Below, in pieces: positions 7,026-29,028 of a stretch of 64,000 bases of DNA. This DNA comes from Haloarcula laminariae (GTDB lineage: Archaea > Halobacteriota > Halobacteria > Halobacteriales > Haloarculaceae). Below the pieces are notes generated by a model. That model saw only the letters and a program-made list of their open reading frames with translations, searched no databases and had not been told where the DNA came from. The position numbers were made by a program, and so were the translations under genes. Each line of letters begins with the position of its first letter. The stretch's first letter is position 1. The DNA lies in NCBI RefSeq assembly GCF_025457605.1, contig NZ_JAMZFY010000002.1, forward strand, positions 868,001 to 932,000, in the 5' to 3' direction.

Positions 7026-8501
7026 ATGAGTTGGAAGGACACCGCCGAACCACTGCTCGTGCGGATGCCGGCAGTCCGCCGTCCGGAAGGACACGTCCCG
7101 TTCAAGCGCAAACTCGCGTGGACGGGGGGCGTGTTGGTACTGTATTTCTTCCTGACGAACGTGAAGCTGTTCGGCCTCGACATCGACGCGAGCCAGCAGG
7201 TCTTCGGCCGATTCGGGTCGATTCTGGCCTCCGGCCAGGGGAGTATCATGCAGCTGGGTATCGGGCCCATCGTCACCGCGTCCATCGTGTTGCAGCTACT
7301 CGGTGGAGCGAACCTGCTCGGGTTGAACACGCAGGACGACCCGCGGGACCAGATCCTCTACCAGGGGCTCCAGAAGCTGCTGGTGCTCGTGATGATCTGC
7401 CTGACCGGCATCCCGATGGTGTTTGCGGCGAACTTCCTGCCGCCGGACGCGGCCGTGGCCCAGTCGCTGGGCATCGGTACGACCGGCGTGCAGGCGCTCA
7501 TCTTCGCCCAGATGTTCGTCGGCGGTGTCCTCATCCTGTTCATGGACGAGGTCATCTCGAAGTGGGGCGTCGGCTCCGGTATCGGCCTGTTCATCGTCGC
7601 CGGCGTGAGCCAGCGACTGCTGGGCGGACTGCTGTCGACCCCCTTCATCGGGAACCAGAACGGGATCGTCTACACGTGGTATCTCTACATCACTGGCCAG
7701 CAGGCTACGGGGTCGCTGTTTACCGCGTCTGGTATCCAGACCCTGTTCCTCTCGCCCGGTGGCGGCCGACTGCTCGCGTTGATTACGACGGTGCTCATCT
7801 TCTCCATCGTCGTCTACGCGGAGTCGGTCCGCGTCGAGATACCCCTCTCGAACGCGCGGGTCAAGGGCGCGCGCGGTCGCTTCCCCGTGAAGCTCATCTA
7901 CGCGAGCGTCCTGCCGATGATCCTCGTCCGCGCGCTCCAGGCCAACATCCAGTTCCTGGGGCGTATCCTCGACCAGCAGCTCGCGAACCTGCCGGGCTGG
8001 ATCGGGACCTACAACAACGCCGGGCAGCCGGTGAGTGGCGTGTTCTACTACCTGGCACCCATCCAGTCGCCCGGCGACTGGATGTGGTTCCTCGACGCGA
8101 CGACCCAGCCGGTCTGGCAGATACTCGTCCGCATCGGCGTGGACCTCACCTTCATGCTGATCGGCGGGGCTATCTTCGCCGTCTTCTGGGTCGAGACCAC
8201 CGATATGGGCCCCGAGGCGACGGCGAAACAGATCCACAACTCCGGGATGCAGATTCCCGGCTTCCGGCAGAACGTCGGCGTCATCGAGAAGGTGCTCGAA
8301 CGCTACATCCCGCAGGTCACCGTCATCGGCGGTGCCCTCGTCGGACTGCTGGCTGTCATGGCCAACATGATGGGTACTATCGGCAACGTCTCCGGGACGG
8401 GGCTGTTGCTTACGGTCTCTATCACGTACAAGCTGTACGAGGAGATCGCCGAGGAGCAGCTCATGGAGATGCACCCGATGATGCGCCAGATGTTCGGCTG
8501 A
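7026..8501 (+). CDS. secY: Protein translocase subunit SecY (Sec61 alpha)
   Basis: 491 aa. Channel subunit of the Sec translocon in the cytoplasmic membrane. About ten membrane segments are visible (for example LAWTGGVLVLYFFLTNVKLFGLD and AFWVETTDMG-type loops). The plug/TM2 area reads FGSILASGQGSIMQLGIGPIVTASIVLQLLGGA, and the cytosolic loop has ARVKGARGRFPVKLIYASVLPMILV. Last gene of the ribosomal operon. Its final 21 bases, encoding MRQMFG-stop, are repeated exactly at 29008-29028: an element has inserted at the 3' end without changing the protein. Confidence 0.97.
   Translation: MSWKDTAEPLLVRMPAVRRPEGHVPFKRKLAWTGGVLVLYFFLTNVKLFGLDIDASQQVFGRFGSILASGQGSIMQLGIGPIVTASIVLQLLGGANLLGLNTQDDPRDQILYQGLQKLLVLVMICLTGIPMVFAANFLPPDAAVAQSLGIGTTGVQALIFAQMFVGGVLILFMDEVISKWGVGSGIGLFIVAGVSQRLLGGLLSTPFIGNQNGIVYTWYLYITGQQATGSLFTASGIQTLFLSPGGGRLLALITTVLIFSIVVYAESVRVEIPLSNARVKGARGRFPVKLIYASVLPMILVRALQANIQFLGRILDQQLANLPGWIGTYNNAGQPVSGVFYYLAPIQSPGDWMWFLDATTQPVWQILVRIGVDLTFMLIGGAIFAVFWVETTDMGPEATAKQIHNSGMQIPGFRQNVGVIEKVLERYIPQVTVIGGALVGLLAVMANMMGTIGNVSGTGLLLTVSITYKLYEEIAEEQLMEMHPMMRQMFG
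8481..8501 (+). repeat. attL core (last 21 bases of secY)
   Basis: 21-bp direct repeat, identical to 29008-29028. It starts ATGCGCCAGATG, ends GGCTGA and includes the secY stop codon. The bases just outside differ between copies (g before and g after here; c before and c after in the right copy), so the identity is exactly 21 bp. Confidence 0.88.
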
Positions 8502-8579: not shown

Positions 8580-9176
8580 ATGTCTGATTCTGATGAGTCA
8601 CTCCCATCGCCTCACACATCACTAAAAATCGATAGAGAAGAGAAGAAAGAGTGGATGGAGGCAGTTGACGATGGAGATTACGACACCCTAAGTGACTTAA
8701 TCAAAACTTCTGTTCGTCACGAATTAGACGATAATTTCGGGTTCGTTGAGAACCATACAGAGCAAAGCAACACCCAAGAAGTCGACGTAGACCTCTCTGG
8801 AATCGAAGATAGACTCGATGTTTTAGCTCAACAGATATCTCGTGTTGAATCAGACCTGGGGCGTGTCTCTGACGGTGATGACGAAGATATCATAGACCCC
8901 AACTCTGATGAATTTTATCGAATTCAGGGAGAAGTTGAAAACGCGCTACCGTTGGTCGAAAGTGAAGAGCAAATGAAAGACTTGGAATTGGCTATGGAGC
9001 TTCCTATCTCCGAGAGAGCACGTGTTACAGGGTATGTCAGTGATATCGCTGCTGCCTTGGATGAACCTGAGGATGCCGTCAGACAAGCGTGCATGAACCT
9101 CAAAGAACAGAAGACTCGTGTGCAGGTGATAGTGGATGATAGTGGTAAGCGTCGATTCTTCGAGGTGGAGCGATGA
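8580..9176 (+). CDS. Unrecognised acidic protein co-transcribed with the integrase
   Basis: 198 aa from the ATG at 8580 (a TTG at 8571 is also in frame). The N-terminus (residues about 20-50) looks like a short helical segment (DREEKKEWMEAVDDGDYDTLSDLIKTSVRHEL). Residues about 75-105 could form a coiled coil (IEDRLDVLAQQISRVESDLGRV). The last 75 residues resemble a winged-helix unit (ELPISERARVTGYVSDIAAALDEPEDAVRQACMNLKEQ...VQVIVDDSGKRRFFEVER). It overlaps the integrase start by four bases (ATGA), so the two are made together. A DNA-binding partner or recombination directionality factor is a reasonable inference. Confidence 0.75.
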   Translation: MSDSDESLPSPHTSLKIDREEKKEWMEAVDDGDYDTLSDLIKTSVRHELDDNFGFVENHTEQSNTQEVDVDLSGIEDRLDVLAQQISRVESDLGRVSDGDDEDIIDPNSDEFYRIQGEVENALPLVESEEQMKDLELAMELPISERARVTGYVSDIAAALDEPEDAVRQACMNLKEQKTRVQVIVDDSGKRRFFEVER

Positions 9177-10303
9177 GCGACAAAAACGCACCTCCTGAGT
9201 CCACCACTACTATTCCAGAAGCCCACGAGCTCAATGAGAATCACGAGAGCTTGTTCACGGATTTTTTCGAGGCTAGAAGTTACGAAGACACGTCTGTTGG
9301 AACGCGAGAAAGCGATATACGAGCATATCTCGACTGGTGTGAAAGGAATGATGTAGAAGCTGATGATGCAGATGATAGTGATATCCACCAATACATCACA
9401 TCGATAAAAGACGAGAAAGCAGGGCAGACTGTCATCAGTCGAGTCAACAGTGTCTCTATCTTTTACGTGGTCTTGGGGAACGTCGGAGAAGTTGATATCG
9501 AGAACCCGTGTGCCTCAATCAACTTACGAGAAGACTACGAGATTAAATCTAACCAGACCAAGCAACTCCAGGTCATCGTAGATAAAACTCGTAGCACAGA
9601 CGACCCAGGAGCAAAATTAGCACTCAAACCAGAGCAGTTCGAGAAAATATTCGACCACGCTCCGAACCCCAAAATTCGAAACGAATTGATGATGAGACTC
9701 GCGTTTGAATGTGGTTTGAGGCCTATAGAAATCAGCCGTCTCAAGGTCAGAGACGTAGATAGAGAGAATCAACATCTTACGGTTGACAGTGCGAAAATCA
9801 AGGACCAAGAGGATGAGTTGTACTTCAGGGACCAGTGGTGGACTTCCGACCGAACAGATTATCTGATGTATCGATGGTTGGCTGAGAAACGGCCAGACCT
9901 ACCGACTGCAAGTGACCCTGATGACCCTCTGAACCTCGATTATGAGGACGATGATAGCAACGATGAATATCTGGATGAACAGTTGTTCCTAACTTCGCAC
10001 AATGATGAACTCCGACCGTCTTATTTCGGTCGGCTCATACGTGAGACTGCCTGTAAGGACGAAGTTGGTTTGAATGAAGTCTTGTACATAGATGGTAACG
10101 GAAAGAAGCGATGGTTGGTATCTGGGCACTCTGCTCGTATTAGCTACATCACGTATATGGCTAATCACTCACCTGTGAAAATCCCAGTATTAGCCTCTCT
10201 CTGCGGACATAAGAAGGTTGAGACGACGTATAGCTATGTCTATACTGATGATGACACGCTAGAGCTGAACCAGAAAGAGTACGCTCCACTCTCTGACGAT
10301 TGA
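9173..10303 (+). CDS. int: Tyrosine recombinase / integrase of the element
   Basis: 376 aa. Site-specific recombinase expected to integrate and excise the element at the secY 3' end. The N-terminal core-binding domain covers residues about 25-125 (SVGTRESDIRAYLDWCERND). The catalytic domain has all expected residues: R183 in ECGLRPIEIS, a Lys near 208-210, H319 and R322 in SGHSARISY, H346 in SLCGHKKVE, and Tyr 355 in TTYSYVY as likely nucleophile. It lies about 670 bp from attL and is transcribed away from secY. Confidence 0.93.
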   Translation: MSDKNAPPESTTTIPEAHELNENHESLFTDFFEARSYEDTSVGTRESDIRAYLDWCERNDVEADDADDSDIHQYITSIKDEKAGQTVISRVNSVSIFYVVLGNVGEVDIENPCASINLREDYEIKSNQTKQLQVIVDKTRSTDDPGAKLALKPEQFEKIFDHAPNPKIRNELMMRLAFECGLRPIEISRLKVRDVDRENQHLTVDSAKIKDQEDELYFRDQWWTSDRTDYLMYRWLAEKRPDLPTASDPDDPLNLDYEDDDSNDEYLDEQLFLTSHNDELRPSYFGRLIRETACKDEVGLNEVLYIDGNGKKRWLVSGHSARISYITYMANHSPVKIPVLASLCGHKKVETTYSYVYTDDDTLELNQKEYAPLSDD

Positions 10304-12959: not shown

Positions 12960-13260
12960 ATATATCCAGAATCCTAACTGTGGTACGGTTCAACAAGAAG
13001 TCAGCCTGAATTACACCTGTGTTACGTCAAAATCACACCAAAATAACACCCCTGTAACCACCAGAAGGCGCTAGGAATACTACACATGCTACACCAAATC
13101 TGGGGGTGTGTAGGTGCATGAAGACAAATTTAGAGAGATGTCCATAATATACACCCCCCTAAATTAAGTGTAGTAAGTGTAGTACTTCTACCCCCGTCTT
13201 TCGATTATAGGGGTGTAAATCTGGTGTAGTACTACTACACTTACTACACCTGGGAGTTGA
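12960..13260. other. Candidate replication origin / iteron region next to the primase-helicase
   Basis: A gene-free, A+T-rich stretch between 12949 and 13340 is packed with GTGTA/TACAC motifs. Two nested inverted repeats are exact: GTGTAGTAAGTGTAG at 13168-13182 with its complement at 13235-13249, and TACACCCC at 13150-13157 with GGGGTGTA at 13210-13217. Further TACAC(C) units occur in 13080-13130 and ACACC units in 13020-13060. The primase-helicase gene ends just beyond it. This resembles an iteron origin, though a regulatory or packaging site is possible. Confidence 0.55.
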
Positions 13261-20257: not shown

Positions 20258-20851
20258 CTACAGCCAGTCTACTTTGCTAATCTCTCGACTCTGTTTCTCA
20301 GCAGTGAACTTCTGGAGATAGTGCTCTCGAAAGGTAATCCAATCGTCCCAAGACCCCCATTCCATCACCTGCAACGGAGAAACATCGTTATCAAGTAGAC
20401 TGTTTGCCCACGTACGCCGACCGTCGTGAAGCCGAACATGCTGCCACCCTTCATCTCCGTTTTCTTCTTGCAGCTCGGCGGCTGCTTGCTTCAGATGCCG
20501 CGTACAGGTGCGCATCGATTGTTGGATTATAGTATCGTCAGGATTCACTTCACCTGTCTCCTGGACTGTGTTAATCCGAACAGCGACAGAATGGGGAATA
20601 GGTGTCTCTCGGTACTTCCCTCTCTTAGCCCCATCTTCCCAGACTCTCAGAATCCAGTCTCCAGTCTCTCTCTTCCGAACGTCTCTGAAACGCACGTGCT
20701 CGATTTCTTGTCTGCGTAGGCCACAGTACGAAGCTAATTGCCAACTGATACTGCTATGAGTATTTTCTATCTCTTCTGCCAAGTCTGACCGTTCAGTCGT
20801 AGTGAGAACAACTCGATATCCATCTTGATTGTCGTAGTTTTCTAATTGCAT
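20258..20851 (-). CDS. Tyrosine recombinase, catalytic domain only
   Basis: 197 aa from the ATG at 20851 (MQLENYDNQDGYRVVLT; an earlier in-frame Met at 20881 is less likely). No N-terminal core-binding domain. Catalytic motifs: R46 in YCGLRRQEIE, H142-x-x-R145 in VRLHDGRRTWA, Tyr 178 in TFREHYL. The usual second His is W168 (GSWDDW), a change tolerated in some family members. It faces the two plus-strand small genes. It may act as a second resolvase, invertase or regulator. Confidence 0.8.
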   Translation of the reverse strand: MQLENYDNQDGYRVVLTTTERSDLAEEIENTHSSISWQLASYCGLRRQEIEHVRFRDVRKRETGDWILRVWEDGAKRGKYRETPIPHSVAVRINTVQETGEVNPDDTIIQQSMRTCTRHLKQAAAELQEENGDEGWQHVRLHDGRRTWANSLLDNDVSPLQVMEWGSWDDWITFREHYLQKFTAEKQSREISKVDWL

Positions 20852-20997
20852 CGTAGTCCATAATACAATCTTTACAGACAAATAACTATTGGATTGTTGT
20901 CATTTTTGGCTATATGCGAGATTTGAATCGTCTCAGAAGACTCTGAACCCTACCTTCAACAAGATATAGTCCAACAATACAGGAAACTTAGACAACG

Positions 20998-21478: not shown

Positions 21479-21694
21479 TTAGTTATCCTCGACGACCTCG
21501 TATTCTCCGTCTTCTCCGATGTTGTCCAATGGTACCAACAGCGTATCGGGGCTCAATTCAGATTTGACGATATACGCAAATCTCTCTCCTGAAGCCTCAT
21601 CTCGCAAGATTTTGTCAACTATTCCCTCGACGTAGCTATGTTCATCATCCAGCCAATCGCTGTTGTATCTGAGTCTGTCTCCGACCTGTACCAT
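21479..21694 (-). CDS. Small beta-barrel-like protein, family copy 1
   Basis: 71 aa: MVQVGDRLRYNSDWLDDEHSYVEGIVDKILRDEASGERFAYIVKSELSPDTLLVPLDNIGEDGEYEVVEDN in segments. The pattern GDRLRY...VDKILRDE..G.R.AYIV....G..GEYEVVED recurs at 24478-24696 and, broken, at 23938-24051. KOW/SH3-like small barrel is inferred from the strand pattern. Confidence 0.65.
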   Translation of the reverse strand: MVQVGDRLRYNSDWLDDEHSYVEGIVDKILRDEASGERFAYIVKSELSPDTLLVPLDNIGEDGEYEVVEDN

Positions 21695-24477: not shown

Positions 24478-24696
24478 TCACCTATCCTCGACGACCTCGT
24501 ATTCGCCCTCCATTCCGATATCGCTAATCGGTATCAGCTCTGTCTTAGGATTATTCGACACAGGAACTAAGTATGCGTATCTGATGCCCGTATTCTCGTC
24601 TCGCAGTATCTTATCGACTCTTCTAGGGGTTCGTTCAATTCCATCAGTAGTCCACTGAGATGAGTCTCGAACCTTGTCTCCGACTTGAATATCCAT
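24478..24696 (-). CDS. Small beta-barrel-like protein, family copy 2
   Basis: 72 aa: MDIQVGDKVRDSSQWTTDGIERTPRRVDKILRDENTGIRYAYLVPVSNNPKTELIPISDIGMEGEYEVVEDR in segments. It shares VGD-VR, VDKILRDE, AYLV and GEYEVVED with the protein at 21479-21694. Two intact and one broken copies within 3.2 kb point to tandem duplication and decay inside the element. Confidence 0.65.
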   Translation of the reverse strand: MDIQVGDKVRDSSQWTTDGIERTPRRVDKILRDENTGIRYAYLVPVSNNPKTELIPISDIGMEGEYEVVEDR

Positions 24697-24785: not shown

Positions 24786-25337
24786 TCACGTCGATTCAAT
24801 CACCTCCTGAAGCTTTTGATAGAGTGATTCAAATTCATCTTCAGCATTTTCGGGGTCTGTTACCCCTGAGAGTGTTACTTTTCCTGTCGCAAATATCTTA
24901 AAAAGCCCTTCATATTCGGGAGGACGGTAGTCCAGTGCAGGAAAAGACTCAGGCTCATACTCGATATTCTCTATCCCAAGGAAGGGTATTAACGCTTCAA
25001 GCCGTAATTTAGAACCGAAGTCACCTCGATAGACAAGATTTCTCAACTCGCATGTATTTTTGACCTCAATTTCTCTCTCAAGCATATTTGACACTTGTCT
25101 CACAAATTTTCTATGGGTAGCATACAACTCAACAATCGACTCTGCCCCCGCAATATTGTATTTCCCAGAAGAGAATACCATGATAGTTGCGCCGTCTTCC
25201 TCAAATTGAAGACATAATCCAGGGTATGATGCTGGCTCGTATTTTTTATTTTTAGCCTCGATATCAGCATAAAGAGAAGGAAGATTCAACTCAATACCGA
25301 GGTCGTCACCCCCAACAACACTCACTACTTCAGGCAT
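24786..25337 (-). CDS. Divergent TATA-binding-protein-like factor
   Basis: 183 aa, close to the usual TBP length. Two direct repeats about 94 residues apart: EPASYPGLCLQF...IMVFSSGKYNIAGA (about 34-64) and EPESFPALDY...LFKIFATGKVTLSGV (about 128-159), each like the TBP pattern FPGL-Y...LIFSSGKI-TGA. The N-terminus VVSVVGGDDLGIELNLPSL matches the TBP start VNVVASxDLG. Of the DNA-kinking Phe positions, one is Tyr (Y38); F55, F132 and F149 remain. Strongly diverged from chromosomal TBPs. It lies 131 bases downstream of the restriction cassette on the same strand. Confidence 0.8.
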   Translation of the reverse strand: MPEVVSVVGGDDLGIELNLPSLYADIEAKNKKYEPASYPGLCLQFEEDGATIMVFSSGKYNIAGAESIVELYATHRKFVRQVSNMLEREIEVKNTCELRNLVYRGDFGSKLRLEALIPFLGIENIEYEPESFPALDYRPPEYEGLFKIFATGKVTLSGVTDPENAEDEFESLYQKLQEVIEST

Positions 25338-25468
25338 TAATAGGGTTCAAGCGTCGAGACACTTTGCTGTTTCTTGGGGGACTCAAGATTCCAATCTTGA
25401 GAAAATCACCTTTGATAAGTTAGATATTCTCTCATCTGGAGGCCAGAACAAATCTTGACTCCCTTTGA

Positions 25469-27979: not shown

Positions 27980-28900
27980 ATGCCCAACTTCGCCGATTTT
28001 GAAGATGAAGGAGTAGATTGGATTACCATTCTTGAAGAGGATTATTATCCCGATTACTTGGAGGATGCAGTTGAGCGTCATGAGGAAGACCTCCGAAAAT
28101 TTAAACAGATTGTACATAAGGTAGATTCGTCCGCTAAAATTCTAACATATATTAATAGCAACTGGAAGACGACAGGAGATGAAGGCAAGGAGAGAAGACA
28201 ACTTCTCCGAATTTTCCGCAGATACGTCTTGCCTGTCGCATCTGTCGAAATGACCTCAGTCAAAAGTAATCATGATATGGTAGTAAATGACTTTGCTGAA
28301 TTCATTAGGCCGATAGACGAGGTAAGGGAAGTATTGAACGGTCGAGAGTTCCCTGACGAGGCTCTGGCAGGTATTCTAGACCAGCACGATGACCGTGGTG
28401 AGAAAGGCTATTGGGTGGAAGACAAAATATTTGAATGGTTTGAAACCAACTTTGGGGACGAATTCAACATCGAGGGTCCAAGAGGGGCGGGCTCGGATAT
28501 TTACCTGAATGAAGAATTCAGTGGGTACGAGCACGAAACGCCTGCAGATTTTATTGTATACGGGCCCACGGACGAACCCGAAATAATTGGCTTTGCACGG
28601 TATGACTCAGATAGAGGCGGAGGACAGGAGGACGACAGAACAGGTGGAAATGATGATAAGGTTCAGAAAATAACGGAGTACAGTAAGGAACACGACTATG
28701 ATATAAAAATACTGTTTATAGCTGAGGGTCCAGGTCTTCTTCTCGGTGATATGTGGCAGAGTAATGCAAGAACTGAACAGAAAGCGCAGAATGTCAAGGT
28801 TTGCACTCTTAAAATGATGGACGAGCGTATCTCTGAGGATTGGGTTACTTCGGACCCGATTTCTGAATCAAGCGGACCAATTATTCAAGGTGAAAAATAG
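27980..28900 (+). CDS. Putative restriction endonuclease, copy B
   Basis: 306 aa, homologous to copy A over nearly its whole length (well over half of aligned residues identical by eye) but on the opposite strand, beyond the methyltransferase. Shared blocks: DWIT-E-DYYPDYL, RRQLLRIFRRY, KGYWVEDKIFEWFE, GPRGAGSDIYLN, TPADFIVYGP, GFARYDSDRGG and QEDDRTGGN, EGPGLLLGDMW. Differences: GYEHE instead of GYEHK before TPADF, and a shorter C-terminus. Both copies look intact, which argues for heterodimeric action or two related specificities rather than a dead duplicate. Confidence 0.6.
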   Translation: MPNFADFEDEGVDWITILEEDYYPDYLEDAVERHEEDLRKFKQIVHKVDSSAKILTYINSNWKTTGDEGKERRQLLRIFRRYVLPVASVEMTSVKSNHDMVVNDFAEFIRPIDEVREVLNGREFPDEALAGILDQHDDRGEKGYWVEDKIFEWFETNFGDEFNIEGPRGAGSDIYLNEEFSGYEHETPADFIVYGPTDEPEIIGFARYDSDRGGGQEDDRTGGNDDKVQKITEYSKEHDYDIKILFIAEGPGLLLGDMWQSNARTEQKAQNVKVCTLKMMDERISEDWVTSDPISESSGPIIQGEK

Positions 28901-29007: not shown

Positions 29008-29028
29008 ATGCGCCAGATGTTCGGCTGA
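29008..29028 (+). repeat. attR core (duplicate of secY 3' end)
   Basis: Exact 21-bp copy of 8481-8501. Beyond it the sequence returns at once to the G+C-rich chromosomal style. Confidence 0.88.

Follow-up and report, generated by a model that had tools for sequence, protein, structure and literature searches.

TATA-binding proteins (TBPs) of the TbpC-like clade are a standard accessory of restriction/modification and related defence modules. One of them is encoded in the 64,000-nt stretch of DNA analysed here, referred to as the window (Haloarcula laminariae, assembly GCF_025457605.1, contig NZ_JAMZFY010000002.1, positions 868,001–932,000, forward strand), where its gene is carried by a 20.5-kb integrated element inserted at the 3′ end of secY and adjoins a predicted BstEII-like restriction-modification system of bacterial type. 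The window TBP is a new member of a known clade, and it is the clade's linkage to restriction and defence modules that seems undescribed. Probably, the clade as a whole has been taken over as a plug-in control factor, or a working part, of archaeal restriction, BREX and related defence systems, moving between unrelated systems, plasmids and viruses.

The original prediction, made from the DNA sequence alone, had placed a gene for a two-repeat TBP-like protein at 24786–25337, and the open reading frame (ORF) at that position, on the minus strand, runs uninterrupted from ATG to stop for 183 aa. By sequence comparison and a structural model, its product is a genuine two-repeat TBP with a predicted saddle. 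Pfam family PF00352 covers both repeats (E = 5.1e-33; 113.2 bits, relative to a curated cut-off of 22.9), and the top solved relatives are the archaeal (Pyrococcus) TBPs 1ais and 1d3u, at E values of ~1e-20. An AlphaFold2 model, computed from the window sequence and 28 relatives, predicts the saddle with a mean predicted local distance difference test (pLDDT) score of 92.1 and a predicted template-modelling (pTM) score of 0.81. When this model was compared with the PDB using Foldseek, the first 44 matches were TBPs throughout (TM-scores of 0.79–0.88 by query length, with 0.87 to DNA-bound TBPs), so the structure check that had been suggested for this protein returned the expected fold and no homologues of other function. 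The quoted motifs, EPxSYPG/EPESFPA and FSSGKY/FATGKV, are present as well. Alignment with yeast TBP equates Y38, F55, F132 and F149 with the DNA-kinking positions F99, F116, F190 and F207, and exactly one of the four phenylalanines is replaced by tyrosine (Tyr38 at F99), just as had been read from the sequence. This is a conservative change that is common in the clade; four kinking phenylalanines are typical of canonical TBPs and are no requirement for membership in PF00352. The same alignment shows the stirrup glutamates E128 and E130 to be retained, and further changes on the DNA face at S6, N61, A63, K147, T155 and S157.

A phylogeny with host TBPs had also been proposed, and a maximum-likelihood tree of 101 TBPs, in which the bootstrap had not completely converged and which includes several long rows, gathers the divergent haloarchaeal TBPs into one 66-row clade apart from the canonical ones (support 100/98). 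This clade holds TbpC of Halobacterium plasmid pNRC100 together with the window TBP, the latter grouping with an EcoRV-linked TBP. Both phenylalanines of the N-terminal pair are replaced, mostly by tyrosine, in 50 of 65 clade members; the window TBP has lost one of the two, and loss of the pair is typical of most members, not of all. The C-terminal pair is intact in 58/65, and the stirrup glutamates (yeast E186 and E188, which contact TFIIB/TFB) are kept in 59/65 and 61/65, respectively. An asymmetry of this kind, with the TFB-facing half retained and the other changed, speaks for selection and against decay. The earlier description of a divergent TBP holds, but the wording “has drifted” is misleading, for the N-terminal replacements are clade-wide and the C-terminal half is conserved. 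No TFB match was found in the element region; ~10 TFB genes occur elsewhere in the organism's own genome.

The gene upstream of the TBP gene, 131 nt away on the same strand, encodes a putative type II restriction endonuclease. Its one PDB match is BstEII (9ibq; E = 1e-92 by phmmer) and it falls in no Pfam family; the 326-aa protein is 52% identical to a protein encoded by a plasmid of Geobacillus stearothermophilus ATCC 12980 (tblastn). Next to it is a predicted DNA methyltransferase, whose domain lies 1,225 nt from the TBP gene and whose best plasmid match (49% identity) adjoins the BstEII gene of the same Geobacillus strain. The system is read as BstEII-like on the strength of this PDB match and of the matching plasmid-borne endonuclease and methyltransferase pair; no R.BstEII homologue was found in 390 other haloarchaeal genomes. 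A second R.BstEII homologue, 59% identical to the first over 310 aa (blastp), is encoded on the far side, such that the two flank a single methyltransferase gene, possibly as a heterodimeric or duplicated endonuclease. Avoidance of GGTNACC in the element (0 sites vs. ~3–4 expected, P 0.04–0.07) was considered and dropped as evidence, being not significant and matched by an equal rarity of other palindromes. The promoter region of the TBP gene contains a perfect palindrome, a candidate operator, of which the window holds no second copy.

The linkage of the divergent TBP clade to restriction and defence modules extends well beyond this locus. Three DNA methyltransferase families were located in 34 haloarchaeal genomes that were chosen for holding divergent TBPs, a choice that introduces no bias on the distance between TBP and methyltransferase genes. 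A methyltransferase domain lies within 5 kb of 38 of the 48 divergent TBPs, where 0.7 would be expected from the 1.5% of these genomes that is within 5 kb of a methyltransferase, and within 8 kb of 43; the TBPs are related by descent, and the counts accordingly overstate the number of independent events. Two of the counted misses are false, as methyltransferase genes of other families lie next door. In genome G447, the TBP gene ends an operon with genes for an EcoRV-family endonuclease and a D12 methyltransferase, and in genome G255 the gene for the next closest relative is immediately followed by one for a DUF1156-type methyltransferase (L068:10015-13368), which is split by a transposase-like ORF. 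None of seven canonical TBPs that were checked has a methyltransferase within 90 kb on its contig. Because TBP and methyltransferase genes both favour plasmids, a same-contig null was also run, with random placement on contigs of ≥80 kb and 200,000 draws; 32 of 38 were observed within 5 kb, a count never reached in any draw, vs. 2.4 expected, and chance co-residence in islands was rejected on this basis, although not all of the TBPs have independent origins.

Pfam assignments of the neighbours agree with the distances. Among 85 proteins encoded next to divergent TBPs, the commonest families include Eco57I (17), N6_Mtase (17) and ResIII (10), and no restriction, BREX or DNA-methylase family occurs among 46 neighbours of 33 canonical TBPs, the UPF0020 found there being of the described RMKL-like, RNA-methylase type. 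With respect to gene order, a large gene on the same strand precedes 29 of 68 TBP gene copies at a distance of no more than 70 nt, in many cases with the ends overlapping, and another 13 copies diverge from a large gene within 200 nt, which is the place expected of a regulator.

Plasmids account for 76 records with relatives of the window TBP, and two viruses, HRTV-9 and HJTV-2, also encode them. The modules linked to them reside on plasmids, chromosomes and these two viruses, often in the same operon as the TBP gene, and represent at least six unrelated types (BstEII, EcoRV, type IIG, type I, BREX, methyltransferase-helicase and DUF1156). For example, methyltransferase, helicase and TBP genes with overlapping ends succeed one another on pNRC100 and others (in one further record they are merely adjacent), and some of the TBP-helicase overlaps are of 4 nt, with TBP as the last gene of the operon. 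In HRTV-9, a type IIG gene ends 16 nt before the TBP gene, while the neighbours in HJTV-2 encode an N4-cytosine methyltransferase and an Eco29kI endonuclease. Other TBP genes are located inside BREX loci, including chromosomal examples, or near type I restriction genes (several cases), and one is surrounded by DUF1156, DUF499 and McrBC genes. Two plasmids fit less well: on one, the TBP gene lies beside nucS, no DNA methyltransferase was identified in reach, and the TBP is placed outside the clade; on the other, the methyltransferase is ~3 kb away. In the organism's own genome, which has five TBP genes, the two canonical ones lie far from methyltransferases and all three non-canonical ones, the window TBP included, adjoin defence genes. 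Of these, the copy on contig C4 follows genes for a DrmMI/IIG-like methyltransferase and a BrxHII/DrmD-like helicase, and the copy on contig C1 (L108:6630-7274), which has a degenerate first repeat, lies between PglZ- and PglX-like BREX genes.

Several further observations concern the family itself. In the tree, the TBP at L108:6630-7274 and that at L077:8682 form a pair on a long branch. Two to three divergent TBP genes often occur within a few kb at one defence locus, sometimes head to head (L074, L075, L077, L078, L080, L085, L100, L103, L116, L118 and L133). Longer TBPs of 274–277 aa, with extra N-terminal sequence that has no Pfam match, are encoded beside ordinary divergent TBPs at L078:8577-9401 and L118:8921-9754. 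A scan of viral contigs with the single window protein gave no matches, and one with the TBP alignment gave seven loci; the four non-haloarchaeal TBPs among them that were placed in the tree (L201, L202, L204 and L205) form a clade of their own, far from the haloarchaeal TBPs.

By what means could such a protein serve a restriction module? On balance, if only narrowly, it is probable that it acts as a dedicated initiation factor that works with host TFB and in this way governs when the linked restriction or defence module is expressed, or limits its expression. The conserved C-terminal half, with its kinking phenylalanine pair and stirrup glutamates, would dock with host TFB, and the window TBP would pair with one of the TFBs encoded outside the element. 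The altered N-terminal half may bind a different or weaker downstream TATA sequence, and the TBP would then set when and how strongly the linked restriction genes are transcribed. Its role in the archaeal promoter system would be that of the C proteins or BrxR in bacteria, which are small DNA-binding proteins encoded in restriction or BREX loci whose expression they control. Such control would suit modules that have to establish themselves in a new host while sparing its DNA.

A number of points weigh against this role. Bacterial type II restriction works without any TBP, and the many TBP copies that are the last gene of an operon would suit a structural subunit equally. The upstream A+T profile and TATA-like hexamers of the linked genes are like those of other genes at the same loci, and no promoter motif special to the TBP-linked module genes was found. 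Moreover, Halobacterium remains viable when tbpC is deleted and shows no apparent phenotype in standard conditions (PMC2121645), and in one strain the transcript of tbpC reportedly went undetected (PMC4230888).

The main rival gives the TBP a structural role in the restriction or defence machinery, as a DNA-bending or sensing subunit that would guide a methyltransferase, a helicase or a nuclease to target or foreign promoter DNA. The frequent operon-end position and the 4-nt overlaps with helicase genes would be natural for such a subunit, as would the recurrence of the same linkage over many system types and the presence of TBPs among TOTE and TALON conflict-system components (PMC12458937). 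This role is nevertheless rather unlikely, given that the would-be partners are structurally unrelated, that the BstEII, EcoRV and Eco29kI types work alone in bacteria, that TFB-contact residues remain conserved, and that copies divergent from their module resemble regulators. It is also conceivable, as originally suggested, that the TBP redirects host or element-wide transcription, for instance in favour of element genes, its adjacency to restriction genes reflecting no more than a shared life in mobile islands. TBP/TFB paralogues do control large gene sets in Halobacterium (PMC2121645), and the element that encodes the window TBP is integrated and supplies its own integrase and primase. The genomic evidence, though, favours a narrower function, tied to the adjacent restriction-modification genes. 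The adjacency exceeds what co-residence in islands would give in the same-contig test, operon-like overlaps and chromosomal BREX examples sit poorly with it, and the module promoters show nothing special, all of which leaves this explanation improbable.

A decoy or guard that, in the course of an infection, occupies viral promoters or acts as a competitor of virus-encoded or host TBP and so adds a transcription block beside restriction, seems a shade more improbable still. Such a function would fit a gene located at defence loci, the weakened N-terminal half could give non-productive binding, and viruses carry clade members too; however, these viral copies likewise adjoin restriction genes, the conserved TFB-contact surface favours productive complexes, and direct evidence is lacking. 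Finally, the gene could be a functionless passenger or decaying paralogue carried along by restriction modules, and loss of the N-terminal phenylalanine pair in many members, the degenerate first repeat of one own-genome copy and the tbpC knockout without phenotype (PMC2121645) could all be taken in that sense. Yet despite deep divergence most members retain an open frame and the C-terminal residues that contact DNA and TFB, the gene has become associated with many module types that are unrelated to one another, and the model of the window TBP is well folded, making a passenger very unlikely indeed.

TbpC-like TBPs were recognised by Becker and co-workers, who noted the loss of the N-terminal phenylalanine pair, left their function open and called them “either nonfunctional” or of a “very specialized role” (PMC4230888). 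A TBP on a mobile element is, as such, already known, haloarchaeal plasmids and two isolated viruses being among the carriers (PMC2121645). TBPs have also been listed among the parts of TOTE and TALON conflict systems (PMC12458937), and the likeness to those is that a TBP is encoded in a defence-type operon. TALON has been described in Bacillati, with a TPR-cold-shock partner (PMC12458937); the window differs, no TPR or cold-shock (OB) domain having been found among the window genes scanned, a scan that left aside some small ORFs. TBPs go unmentioned in surveys of haloarchaeal and archaeal restriction systems (PMC6471742, PMC10609329), and no description of their linkage to restriction-modification or BREX was found in the openly readable literature, although an earlier report is possible.

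Among known proteins, pNRC100 TbpC belongs to the same clade, has altered N-terminal and intact C-terminal phenylalanine positions, and, like the window TBP, is restriction-linked, in its case to a methyltransferase-helicase pair. It differs in sequence (36.5% identity), and the window TBP has lost just one N-terminal phenylalanine, has a BstEII-like system as its partner and carries the extra DNA-face changes given above. With canonical archaeal TBPs (TbpE type; Pyrococcus 1ais), the window protein shares the two-repeat saddle, the C-terminal kinking phenylalanines and the TFB-stirrup glutamates; it is ~33% identical to canonical haloarchaeal TBPs, has tyrosine for F99 and changes at the N69, V122, T124, V213 and T215 positions, and is restriction-linked. 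The closest relative found is the G447 TBP (locus L067; 42%), which is also situated at type II restriction genes, at the end of their operon, and shares a serine in place of N69, but is accompanied by other endonuclease and methyltransferase families and has histidine, not tyrosine, at the F99 position. As for the restriction system, the G. stearothermophilus BstEII locus is similar in its endonuclease and neighbouring methyltransferase, whereas in the window, whose host is an archaeon, there are two genes for the endonuclease and an additional one for a TBP. In contrast to C-protein-controlled restriction systems, the linked gene here encodes a TBP (Pfam) and not a helix-turn-helix C protein. 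The likeness of C proteins and BrxR to the TBP is one of supposed role only, as their folds differ (helix-turn-helix type) and there is no homology.

If the proposed role is true, archaea would possess a general transcription factor paralogue dedicated to immunity, which would explain the orphan TbpC. The near-constant adjacency to restriction or BREX genes gives TbpC-like TBPs a testable role, and points to virus or plasmid challenge, not growth, as the relevant assay. It also points to a way in which bacterial-type restriction modules could be safely expressed in archaea, where promoters need TBP and TFB, and it makes TBP an additional gene to look for in the annotation of archaeal defence systems.

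Table 1. Features of the secY-integrated element and its TBP-linked restriction-modification genes (window coordinates).
Feature	Position	Strand	Evidence or remarks
Host secY	7026..8501	+	491-aa ORF, DNA match to annotated secY; frame intact
Left attachment repeat	8481..8501	+	secY 3′ end including stop codon; 21-bp perfect direct repeat, family D15
Tyrosine integrase	9173..10303	+	Beside left repeat; PHROG integrase 8.5e-20, PF00589 4e-13
Primase/helicase-like replication protein, 890 aa	13341..16013	-	PHROG primase/helicase 3.5e-28
Divergent TbpC-like TATA-binding protein, 183 aa	24786..25337	-	Pfam, PDB, AlphaFold2, Foldseek
Perfect 20-bp palindrome CTCAAGATT-CC-AATCTTGAG	25382..25401	.	TBP promoter region, candidate operator
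R.BstEII homologue 1 (predicted type II restriction endonuclease), 326 aa	25469..26449	-	phmmer to PDB 9ibq
Predicted N6/N4 DNA methyltransferase, 385 aa	26505..27662	-	PF01555 6e-46, PADLOC MTase_II 2e-115
R.BstEII homologue 2	27980..28900	+	Divergent from methyltransferase gene
Right attachment repeat	29008..29028	+	21-bp perfect direct repeat, family D15

The element that carries the TBP gene is set off from its surroundings by a GC content of 0.44–0.48 from ~8.5 to 29 kb, vs. ~0.65 outside it in the window, and both of its ends bear the identical direct repeat ATGCGCCAGATGTTCGGCTGA. Together with the tyrosine integrase, the drop in GC content and the repeats at secY uphold the earlier proposal that this TBP gene is part of a mobile element. 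A nucleotide search of plasmids and phages for a close copy of the whole element found none, the secY end alone being matched, and sibling integrases of 34–37% identity were found in 8 of 390 other haloarchaeal genomes. What the linked loci have in common is not the element itself, which shares hardly any genes with the neighbourhoods of related TBPs: only integrases, a weak helix-turn-helix match and a weak methyltransferase match were common to both. Two small proteins of 71–72 aa, 51% identical to each other and without a family match, are encoded at 21479–21694 and 24478–24696. A second, shorter integrase-like ORF inside the element (20258–20881, 207 aa) comprises the catalytic part and is a possible remnant of an older integration. 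Just past the 3′ end of the primase/helicase gene, at 13168–13249, lies an inverted repeat with 27-nt arms that are 89% complementary, a possible replication origin.
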